A DNA stretch of 45,685 nt from Terriglobia bacterium. Lineage in GTDB: Bacteria > Acidobacteriota > Terriglobia > Terriglobales > SCQP01. A model generated the notes under the pieces. That model was not told where the DNA came from. It worked only from the letters and a program-made list of their open reading frames with translations, and made no database searches. The stretch is from positions 1-45,685 of the forward strand of contig JAJPKR010000015.1 of the NCBI GenBank assembly GCA_021323595.1, given 5' to 3'. Of the stretch, positions 8,414 to 34,653 are shown piece after piece. Position numbers and translations under genes: made by a program. Each line of letters opens with the position of its first letter. The stretch's first letter is position 1.

Positions 8414-9775
8414 CTAGTGTTTGTCCTCGCCGGCTGGAGTCACCGGGCGGCGGAGCCAAGGCGTGAAGGTGATGTTCGCGCCGCCGGCGGTGGAGCAGTT
8501 GGGCGCGCCCGGTCCTCCGGGGCAGCCCCAATAATTTTCGGTGGCGTCGATCGTGCCGGTGCAGATGCTGGCGCCGTCGAGGGCGCAGACATCGGCCACG
8601 CCGATCTTGCCGGGGGCGAAATCGTTGAGGTGCAGATCCACCTCGGCAGGCGTGTTGACGGCGATCGCCACCGCCTCCTGGCGAATCACATTGCCGGCGA
8701 TCACGGTGCCATGGACGGGCGAGCCGCCGCCGCTATTGATGTTGATGCCGACCGGGCCGGGCGTGGCGGTGTCGCCCTGGTCGGCGAGGTTGCGGGCGAT
8801 GAAGTTGCCGATGATCTGGTTGCCATCCATGTCATCGGCGGGCAGGCCGAAGGCCGGGCCCACGTGCGTGTGCAAGGCGACGCCGGCGAGGCCGTTGTGA
8901 ATGAGGCGGTTGTGGATGATCACATTGCCGGTGACATGGCCGCGGCCCATGCCGTCGGTGAAGAGCCCGACGCCGGAGCCGCCGATCTGCACGCCGTTGT
9001 CCTGGGAAAGGTTCTCGGCCACGGTGTTGTGGTCCACGCCGAAGTGCGGCGCGAAGGGCGGGCTGGTCATGTTCATCGGCGGATGGGAGGCGAGCACGAT
9101 GCCGCACTCGAGCGGATTGTCCTTGACCGTGTTGCGCGCCAGCAGGTTGCCGCGGCTTTCACCGGTCTCATCGCTGACGAGGATGCCGTCGGCATTGCCC
9201 GCGATCTCGTTGTCGCTGACGATCGAGTCCATGACGCCGACGAGATGGATCGCCCCGCCGCAGTCGCCGGTCTCGTCGGTTTCGTAGATGCCGCTGCCGG
9301 GCTGATTGGGACAGCCGGCCGGCGCGCCGGTGAAGGCGGCGCCGGGCACGGTGTCGTTGTTCAGCACGCGGTTGCCGCGCAAGGTGACGTCAGCGGCGCT
9401 GACCACGAGAATGCCCTCGTAGAGCGCGTGCTCGACGGTGAAGCCGGCGATGGTAACGTTGGCGAGGCCGGCGTTGTCGAAGCCATCCACGAAAACGCCG
9501 TGCGCCAGGTTGGCGGCATCAATGACGGTCGCCTCGGCATCGGCCCCGAGCAACGAGAGGGGGATGGCGATCGTGACCTGCTCGTGATAGGTCCCGGGCG
9601 TGACATAGACGATGTCGCCGGGATGCGCGTGATTCACCGCCGCTTGGATGGTCGTATAACAGCCCATCGCGCCGCCCGGGTTCACGCATAGCGTCGCCGC
9701 CGGCGAGGCCGCCGCCGTGAGAAACACGAAGGCCGCTGCCGCGGCCAGGCCGAAGCCGAAAGTTCGAAATTTCAT
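8414..9775 (-). CDS. secreted right-handed parallel beta-helix protein (NosD/pectate-lyase-like)
   Basis: The 453-residue protein has a signal peptide (FGLAAAAAFVFLTAAASPAA) and the opening layout of PbH1-type beta-helices: CYTTIQAAVNHAHPGD then VYVTPGTYHEQVTI. Many coils with N-rich turns follow, for example LRGNRVLNNDT, VSDNEIAGNADGI, VTGNVIIHNRL and DGNQIIGNFIARN. Proteins of this fold bind or cleave polysaccharides; no lyase active-site residues can be assigned. Six or more cysteines near the ends (CVNPGGAMGCY, CPNQPG, CALDGASIC, GCPGGPGAPNC) suggest disulfide caps. The ATG at 9775 is fixed by an excellent AGGAGG ribosome site and signal peptide. The open frame extends further upstream but is not used. 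Translation may be controlled by a hairpin over the ribosome site. Confidence 0.82.
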   Translation of the reverse strand: MKFRTFGFGLAAAAAFVFLTAAASPAATLCVNPGGAMGCYTTIQAAVNHAHPGDIVYVTPGTYHEQVTIAIPLSLLGADAEATVIDAANLAHGVFVDGFDNAGLANVTIAGFTVEHALYEGILVVSAADVTLRGNRVLNNDTVPGAAFTGAPAGCPNQPGSGIYETDETGDCGGAIHLVGVMDSIVSDNEIAGNADGILVSDETGESRGNLLARNTVKDNPLECGIVLASHPPMNMTSPPFAPHFGVDHNTVAENLSQDNGVQIGGSGVGLFTDGMGRGHVTGNVIIHNRLIHNGLAGVALHTHVGPAFGLPADDMDGNQIIGNFIARNLADQGDTATPGPVGININSGGGSPVHGTVIAGNVIRQEAVAIAVNTPAEVDLHLNDFAPGKIGVADVCALDGASICTGTIDATENYWGCPGGPGAPNCSTAGGANITFTPWLRRPVTPAGEDKH

Positions 9776-9782
9776 GATTGCC

Positions 9783-9810
9783 CCCTCCTCAGGTGAATAC
9801 CTGAGGAGGG
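9783..9810 (-). promoter_or_regulatory. perfect 12-bp hairpin covering the Shine-Dalgarno of the beta-helix gene
   Basis: CCCTCCTCAGGT (9783-9794) and ACCTGAGGAGGG (9799-9810) on the plus strand are exact reverse complements separated by four bases. In the minus-strand transcript the second arm contains the AGGAGG ribosome site, ending about nine bases before the ATG at 9775. A folded leader would therefore hide the ribosome site behind a 12-bp GC-rich stem. Alternatively the palindrome is an operator for a dimeric repressor, because it lies just downstream of a likely -10 element. Confidence 0.7.
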
Positions 9811-9811
9811 C

Positions 9812-9841
9812 AGTGTACTCCGGCCGATGCTGGAAAAACAA
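9812..9841 (-). promoter_or_regulatory. candidate sigma70 promoter of the beta-helix gene
   Basis: Read on the minus strand, TTGTTT (9841-9836) and TACACT (9817-9812) are separated by 18 bases. The predicted start of transcription, near 9805, would fall inside the first arm of the hairpin, leaving about seven base pairs of stem in the message. A promoter further upstream would leave the whole stem. Confidence 0.35.
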
Positions 9842-10082
9842 TATCGCCGAATGAGCAAAGTTTTGCAGAAGGCCGCAGCCGGGAGCGCCGGGAGCGCGTC
9901 GGCCAGCCGTGGGCTGCATGCCGGGGCTGTTGGCGGGGGGGGGTGCGAAGGCGGCAGAGGCGAGATGGGGGCAGTCCGCTGCTCTATATCTCTATGCTCT
10001 GGGTTCTGGGCTTGGCCAGGCGGGCCAAGTTGCGGGACGAAGCGGGGGGCGGTAGAGTGGCGGTTCGAGGATGGGAGCGACG
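9842..10082. other. intergenic stretch with a G9 run
   Basis: No gene is apparent between the divergently oriented beta-helix gene and the next amidohydrolase. A run of nine G residues lies at 9935-9943. The stretch before 10083 has a purine-rich GGGAGCGACG that can serve as ribosome site. No clear promoter box is seen for the plus-strand gene. Confidence 0.4.
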
Positions 10083-11897
10083 ATGCGTTTTTGGCGGCTG
10101 ATGATGATCGCGGCAGTGTGCGGGGGGCTGGGCGCAGCGGCGCCGGCGCGGGGAGCGGCGGGGCCGGCGGCGGGGTTTCCGCCAAAGCTGCCGGCGGCGG
10201 ATTTGGTACTGCGCGGCGGGGTGGTGGCGACGCTCGATCCGCTGCAACCGCGGGTGGCGGCGCTGGCGATACGCGGCGGGCGGATCGAGGCGATGGGCAG
10301 CGACGCGGCGATCGCGCGAACCATCGGTGCGAACACGCGCGTCGTCAACCTGCATGGGGCGTTCGTGACGCCGGGCTTCATCGAGGGTCATGGGCACCTG
10401 ATGGGCACCGGCGAAGCCGCCATGGAACTGAAGCTGGGGCGGGCGCCGAATTGGGACGCGATCGTGGCGATGGTGCGGGCGGCGGCGGCGAAGGCCAAGC
10501 CGGGGGAGTGGATTCTGGGCGCGGGCTGGCAGCAAAGCAAATGGAATCGCACGCCGCAGCCGAACGTGGACGGACTGCCGCTGCCGGCGAGCCTCGACGC
10601 CGCCTCGCCGCATAACCCGGTGATGCTGGAGCACGCGAGCGGCCACGGCATCTACGTGAACGCGGCGGCGCTGCGGCTGGCCGGCATCACGCGGACGACG
10701 CCCGATCCGCCCGGCGGCACGATCGTGCGCGACGCGCAGGGCAACGCGATCGGCATGCTGCGCGACACCGCCATGGGTCCCGTGCGCCGCGCCTACGAAC
10801 GCTATCTGCGGACGCTGCCGGCCGGCGAGCGCGAGGCGCGGCGCGAGCGGGCATTGCGGCTGGCGGTGGAGAACGAGGTGAGCCAAGGCATCACGACGTT
10901 CGTGGATATGGGCGAGGACTTCGCCACCATCGCCTGGCTCAAGCGACAGGCGGCGCGCGGGCTGCCGCTGCGGCTCTATATTAATGTTGGGGTGGCGCCG
11001 GCGGCCACGCTCGCCGCCAACTTGCCCGCGGTGCGGACGATCGGCTACGCCGACGATCATTTCACGGTGCGCGGCGTCGGCGAGGTCACCGCCGACGGGG
11101 CGCTGGGCACGCGCAGCGCGTGGTTTCTCGCGCCCTATCGCGACGCGCCGACCGTCACCGGCAAGAACGTGGTGGCGATGAGCACGATCCGGCAGATCGC
11201 CGAACTCGCCGCCGAGGACGGCTATCAGCTTTCGGTCCACGCCATCGGCGACCGCGCGAACCGCGAAACGCTCGACCTGTTCCAGCAGATCTTCACCGCC
11301 GATCCGGCGGCGCACGCGCTGCGCTGGCGCATCGAGCACGCGCAACACTTGAGTCCCGCGGATATTCCCCGCTTCGCGCAATTGGGCGTGATCGCGTCGA
11401 TGCAGTCCATTCACGCCTGTTCGGATGCGCCGTTCGTGGCGCCGCGGCTGGGCGAGCAGCGGGCGCGCGAAGGCGCGTACGTCTGGCATTCGCTGATCGC
11501 CAGCGGCGCGCTCGTGCTCGACGGCACCGACACCCCGGTCGAGGACACCAACCCCATCGCGAACTTCTTTTGCGGCGTGACGCGGCGCGAGGGCGACGGC
11601 AGCTATTTCTTTCCGGCGCAGGCCAAGACGCGGCTCGAAGAGCTGCGCTCCTATACGTGGAACAACGCCTATGCGATCTTCGCCGAGGGCGATCTCGGCT
11701 CACTGGCGCCGGGCAAGCGCGCCGACCTCGACGTGTTCTCGGGCGATCTGCTGACGCTGCCGGCGGACGAAATCCTGCGCACGCGCGTGCTCTATACCAT
11801 CATCGGCGGCAAGATCGTCTATCAGAGGCCGGGGGCGGCGCAGTGGCGGAGCGGGCAGCTCTTTCCGCCGATGCCGGAGTTCAATCACGTGAATTGA
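10083..11897 (+). CDS. secreted amidohydrolase, YtcJ-like (amidohydrolase family 3)
   Basis: This encodes 604 residues with a signal peptide (MMIAAVCGGLGAAAPARGAA). The N-terminal beta domain opens with ADLVLRGGVVATLD, and the metal-binding HxH is His103/His105 in PGFIEGHGHL. Later metal or catalytic residues lie in QLSVHAIGDRAN, IEHAQHL and the Asp of LDGTDTPVEDTNP. The end shows the standard GSLAPGKRADLDVFSGD. Relatives (YtcJ, NfdA-like) hydrolyse N-substituted formamides or similar amides; the substrate here is unknown. The ATG at 10083 is preferred to 10071 because GGGAG lies eight bases upstream. It converges with the outer-membrane gene, leaving only 21 bases between stops. Confidence 0.88.
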   Translation: MRFWRLMMIAAVCGGLGAAAPARGAAGPAAGFPPKLPAADLVLRGGVVATLDPLQPRVAALAIRGGRIEAMGSDAAIARTIGANTRVVNLHGAFVTPGFIEGHGHLMGTGEAAMELKLGRAPNWDAIVAMVRAAAAKAKPGEWILGAGWQQSKWNRTPQPNVDGLPLPASLDAASPHNPVMLEHASGHGIYVNAAALRLAGITRTTPDPPGGTIVRDAQGNAIGMLRDTAMGPVRRAYERYLRTLPAGEREARRERALRLAVENEVSQGITTFVDMGEDFATIAWLKRQAARGLPLRLYINVGVAPAATLAANLPAVRTIGYADDHFTVRGVGEVTADGALGTRSAWFLAPYRDAPTVTGKNVVAMSTIRQIAELAAEDGYQLSVHAIGDRANRETLDLFQQIFTADPAAHALRWRIEHAQHLSPADIPRFAQLGVIASMQSIHACSDAPFVAPRLGEQRAREGAYVWHSLIASGALVLDGTDTPVEDTNPIANFFCGVTRREGDGSYFFPAQAKTRLEELRSYTWNNAYAIFAEGDLGSLAPGKRADLDVFSGDLLTLPADEILRTRVLYTIIGGKIVYQRPGAAQWRSGQLFPPMPEFNHVN

Positions 11898-34625: not shown

Positions 34626-34653
34626 GCCGCTCTCATCGGCCGATGAGAGCGGC
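34626..34653. repeat. 28-bp perfect palindrome
   Basis: GCCGCTCTCATCGG directly abuts its exact reverse complement CCGATGAGAGCGGC, with no spacer. Outward pairing continues with C-G and G-C after one mismatch. It lies 20 bases past the first hairpin and 71 bases before alkA. Possible roles are a cruciform-forming site, a second terminator arm working on either strand, or a binding site for a dimeric regulator. Confidence 0.8.

Follow-up and report, generated by a model that had tools for sequence, protein, structure and literature searches.

Among the described systems that come closest to the locus reported here, pyrC and pyrD offer the case of a message that shuts its own ribosome site: starts at C produce a hairpin that closes the Shine-Dalgarno (SD) sequence (PMC7818426). 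RNA thermometers form another such class, whose natural examples need destabilising mismatches or bulges (PMC4477652), and palindromes at transcription starts are also known as operators. Rules for the position of the start itself are available (PMC5730371), which place it 7 nt after the −10 element, shift it downstream when the discriminator is pyrimidine-rich and prefer a purine that follows a pyrimidine. These rules were derived from E. coli and are applied here to leaders of Acidobacteriota, a phylum for which our literature search found no start-site map.

The initial annotation of the window, by which we mean the whole analysed stretch of 45,685 nt, had pointed to an SD sequence lying inside one arm of a perfect inverted repeat with a four-base loop, and this was confirmed. 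Read on the minus strand from 9810 to 9783, the repeat is CCCTCCTCAGGT-ATTC-ACCTGAGGAGGG, its two 12-nt arms are 100% complementary, and AGGAGG falls wholly within the 3′ arm, 8 nt upstream of the ATG, which begins at 9775 (Table 1). The leader as a whole can be written TACACT-G-CCCTCCTCAGGT-ATTC-ACCTGAGGAGGG-GGCAATC-ATG. The fold of a 77-nt RNA from this region has a z-score of −4.0, with none of 200 shuffles equally stable, and when shuffling is restricted to the sequence 5′ of the SD the leader gives P = 0.004.

Table 1. Features at the start of the beta-helix gene, with the basis of each assignment
Feature	Positions	Strand	Basis
Gene, secreted right-handed beta-helix protein	8414..9775	minus	translation, Pfam matches, homolog starts
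3′ arm of palindrome (ACCTGAGGAGGG), nearer the ATG, with SD AGGAGG at 9789-9784	9783..9794	minus	
Loop ATTC	9795..9798	minus	inverted-repeat check
5′ arm of palindrome (CCCTCCTCAGGT)	9799..9810	minus	inverted-repeat check, promoter comparison
Predicted transcription start A9802	9802..9802	minus	inferred from −10 spacing and start-site rules (PMC5730371)
Predicted −10 element TACACT	9812..9817	minus	promoter scoring; TACATT in relatives
Predicted weak −35 element TTGTTT, spacer 18	9836..9841	minus	promoter scoring

The gene runs from an ATG at 9775-9773 to a stop at 8414 and encodes a product of 453 aa, with Pfam matches to Beta_helix (9e-12) and NosD (6e-9) and a translated N-terminus, MKFRTFGFGLAAAAAFVFLTAAASPA, that resembles a signal peptide. 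Its homologs begin at the same place; an alternative in-frame start upstream, at 9919, was rejected because it lacks an SD and the homologs, too, begin close to 9775. An amidohydrolase gene (10071-11897) is the divergent neighbour, and no gene neighbourhood is shared with relatives, in which the beta-helix gene alone matches. Homologs of the protein are spread across the order, and the named records are nearly all from Acidobacteriota. Within the family of the window, the 5′ end of the gene is present in three of the 14 genomes, namely the window's own and those of two species (G004 and G005) of a single other genus. A third genome of that genus, G006, contains only a C-terminal fragment of the homolog, ~125 residues in length (G006:C208:35481-35858; L007, L076), owing either to a deletion on the 5′ side or to an artefact of assembly. 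Another homolog, at G327:C107:1355-2581 (L092), carries one in-frame TAG and is possibly a pseudogene.

The palindrome had been described as rare and unlikely by chance, a view that was borne out only in part. Of 150 SD genes sampled, no other has a stem over its SD whose arms exceed 6 bp, but perfect repeats with arms of at least 12 and loops of 3-8 occur eight times in a 409-kb sample of the same genome, or about once per 50 kb. By our rough estimate from this density, about half an SD-covering case would be expected per genome of ~3,000 genes, and fewer than 0.01 for this window. The palindrome by itself is thus only mildly improbable genome-wide and, given such a background, is no proof of function. 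It is single-copy in the 3.55-Mb genome, where the next-best matches have three mismatches and equal a reversed-pattern control, and a repeat family or regulon was consequently rejected.

Several other inverted repeats were recorded in the same genome. A second perfect 12-bp repeat with a 4-nt loop, GCCGCTCTCATC-GGCC-GATGAGAGCGGC, occupies 34626-34653 of the window. On contig C6 (L067:10386-10424) there is an 18-bp perfect repeat with a 3-nt loop, CCGGGAGGGCAAGCCGCC-GCA-GGCGGCTTGCCCTCCCGG, followed by GCGTTTTAGG. The hairpin CCCCAAGGCGC-AGCGGC/GCCGCT-GCGCCTTGGGG has three copies in the 409-kb sample (L069:2490 and 2533, 43 bases apart, and L059:6372), and a gene start on contig C7 (L068:9580) shows a similar layout, following TACACT and a CCCTC...GAGGG hairpin (TACACTGAGCCCTCTTGCCGGCGGGGAGGGCCGCGGAGGCGCATG).

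The promoter-like −10/−35 pair that had been noted just upstream is present but weak: TTGTTT-N18-TACACT is the best promoter of the window (P = 0.04 versus shuffles of the same leader), and a consensus promoter scan did not report it. Its −10 element stops 2 nt short of the first arm, with a single G between them. At the equivalent position G004 and G005 both carry TACATT, and the distance from −10 to ATG is 33-36 nt in all three stem-bearing genomes; the best promoter of G005 is not significant (P = 0.185). Far better promoters lie directly on the gene in distant homologs, with P values of 0.005-0.035 and the −10 element 25-37 nt from the ATG, as in L031 (TTGACG-N17-AATGAT), L038 (TTGACG-N17-CAGAAT) and L040 (TTGACT-N17-AACAAT), and clear promoters are also found in L042 and L035.

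In the 14 of 33 homologs whose promoters were usable for this test, positions 5-10 after the −10 element are 82% pyrimidine, whereas 6-mers drawn at random from these leaders average 53% and in none of 20,000 draws reach the observed value; the 11 homologs outside the family of the window alone give 85%. No such tract follows the −10 at 37 promoter-like sites of the window's own genome, and the scoring of six further homologs yielded no confident promoter. A C/T-rich stretch at these positions can be seen in leaders L030, L031, L035, L036, L038, L040 and L042 and at 9800-9810 of the window. In the window, this pyrimidine tract of the family is represented by the CCTCC arm (CCCTCCTC, part of the 5′ arm). 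An SD-complementary arm begins no more than 2 nt from the −10 element in L031 and L035, so its full transcription in these two leaders is hardly possible.

Counting from the −10 element, A9802 is at position 10 and forms the only pyrimidine-purine step within positions 6-13. The start-site rules accordingly predict A10 for the window, together with A7 in G005 and G10 in G004. The calculated cost of opening the window SD depends strongly on this position, being 17.5 kcal/mol for a start at position 3, 8.8 at C7, 4.7 at C9 and 2.4 at A10. At the predicted starts of G005 and G004 it would be 0.2 and 0.8 kcal/mol, and any start from position 7 on leaves the SD of these two relatives open (0.2-1.2 kcal/mol); a start at position 1 would cost them 6.8 and 8.2 kcal/mol.

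Because the −10 element adjoins the arm, the tract occupies the start region and the SD opening cost at A9802 is low, we favour a compact promoter whose start would lie inside the first arm and whose mRNA would mostly lack the stem. This is the most economical reading, and one to which we would give about an even chance of being right. On this view two ordinary signals would overlap in the palindrome: the start region, rich in pyrimidines and placed just downstream of a −10 element of the sigma-70 type, and, some 20 nt further on, a strong purine-rich SD. Transcription would begin within the first arm, near A9802, giving an mRNA leader of ~27 nt that opens with a small stem-loop of 4 bp and leaves the ribosome site largely free, and the full 12-bp stem would exist in the DNA and mostly not in the message. 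As the predicted start is inside the first arm, the mRNA is probably made without the blocking arm; in other words, since that arm would be the promoter's own pyrimidine-rich start region, transcription probably never produces the stem in full. The small inner stem-loop is kept in the two relatives with another sequence; it may shield the 5′ end, or it may result from the way palindromes mutate. Most likely, the palindrome is a by-product or minor elaboration of the compact promoter. The initial annotation held that a start mapped beyond the first arm would speak against its proposals, and a start beyond or inside that arm is roughly what the position of the promoter predicts.

Several classes of element were tried and rejected. 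An RNA thermometer-like switch, one of the initial proposals, finds no support in the energy model, where at least 93% of the SD pairing in the full stem persists up to 85 °C (in the window the unpaired fraction is 0.02 at 20 °C and rises to 0.07 at 85 °C, the temperature at which the relatives give 0.34 and 0.15); nor does the stem carry destabilising elements. The search of the leader against Rfam retrieved no family above the gathering score, the best hit being a chance match to the microRNA mir-605 (E = 4.6), which leaves no case for a riboswitch or known RNA family. An intrinsic terminator was likewise discarded, since no T run follows the stem on either strand and the site is absent from the terminator scan.

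The leaders of the relatives bear on what else the stem might be. An SD-covering stem of differing sequence is found in the window, G004 and G005, which rank 1-3 among 33 homologs for this feature (P = 0.004, 0.004 and 0.019). More distant homologs have no such stem, and the SD-hairpin P values of the 30 homologs outside the family are uniform (KS P = 0.59); the feature is real and lineage-specific. Searched against the 14 family genomes, a covariance model built from these leaders gave significance to its three training sites only (next best E = 0.75). The initial annotation had suggested searching the leaders of relatives for compensatory changes. Aligned in three rows, the leaders show changes on both sides of four of the seven inner pairs, and 95% of cells are paired, versus 24-52% in slid controls. 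A comparison of the two congeners alone gives one co-varying pair and one broken pair. From three sequences, the four double-sided changes could reflect selection for the stem as RNA, which would suit a fully transcribed, occluding stem-loop served by a promoter further upstream, with translation either kept low or dependent on a trans-acting factor, on processing or on coupled translation for its release. Such a stem-loop would be very stable, however; it has no known opener, and in the model heat does not open it below 85 °C. Moreover, the leaders of G004 and G005 are conserved over only ~78 bases upstream of the ATG, beyond which the intergenic sequence cannot be aligned, and no conserved promoter or leader peptide was found further upstream; we consider a stem transcribed in full unlikely. 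The same double changes have a mutational explanation, as a single template switch yields runs of adjacent ones in one event (PMC8794818), and a pyrimidine start tract that is complementary to a purine SD could have been perfected in this way and have no function at all. The density of 12-bp repeats in this genome and the mixed record of the congeners fit such an origin, but all three family members that keep the 5′ end of the gene have an SD-covering stem, and we regard a functionless palindrome as very unlikely.

The changing sequence of the stem also bears on the other initial proposal, an operator at the transcription start for a dimeric regulator. Its attraction is that a perfect dyad overlaps the predicted start. 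The dyads nevertheless read CAGGT-ATTC-ACCTG, CAGTGT-GCTC-ACACTG and, in G004, a broken one, and the spacing of the arms differs too, so that on this reading both sequence and spacing would have had to change between relatives. Over three sequences this weighs against a conserved operator sequence and would rather favour pairing. The genome has no second site, which is still compatible with a single-target regulator, and the scan of neighbouring ORFs turned up no HTH gene and no other gene for a DNA-binding protein; an operator here seems to us highly improbable. The switch and operator interpretations of the initial annotation are, overall, supported only in part. A rather unlikely possibility, and yet one that the layout invites, is start-site-dependent translational control of the pyrC type, in which starts at C early in the arm would shut the SD, later starts would leave it open, and nucleotide pools or the state of the promoter would set expression. 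The steep fall in SD opening cost along the window's arm and the pyrimidine tract common to the homologs agree with it, as does the same layout in pyrC and pyrD (PMC7818426). Against it, the switching range is not conserved in G004 and G005, which are open from position 7 on, and this beta-helix gene has no link to nucleotide metabolism. That start choice within the tract should decide whether a 7-12 bp stem shuts the SD on the beta-helix mRNA, making this a pyrC-like device outside nucleotide metabolism in Acidobacteriota, is accordingly a doubtful proposition.

If the compact promoter is the right explanation, a striking SD-covering palindrome can arise where the pyrimidine start region of such a promoter meets a strong SD, and a stem that can be read in the DNA may be absent from the mRNA. 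Should the choice of start site vary, pyrC-type control would extend beyond nucleotide genes. Compared with known systems, the locus shares with the hsp17, fourU and ROSE thermometers an SD paired with an anti-SD strand in a single hairpin, but here the stem is a perfect, GC-rich one of 12 bp, without mismatches, bulges or a U-run. Palindromic operators at transcription starts have in common with it the perfect dyad at the predicted start, and differ in that here neither sequence nor arm spacing is conserved, the genome has one site and no neighbouring regulator was found. With respect to pyrC and pyrD of E. coli and Salmonella, the gene is another one, the start is a predicted one and the switching range is not kept in G004 and G005, but both cases present a promoter sitting on the gene, a pyrimidine-rich start, a stem with its 5′ arm at that start and its 3′ arm over the SD, and an access to the SD that depends strongly on where transcription begins (in the window, 8.8 kcal/mol at C7 and 2.4 at A10).
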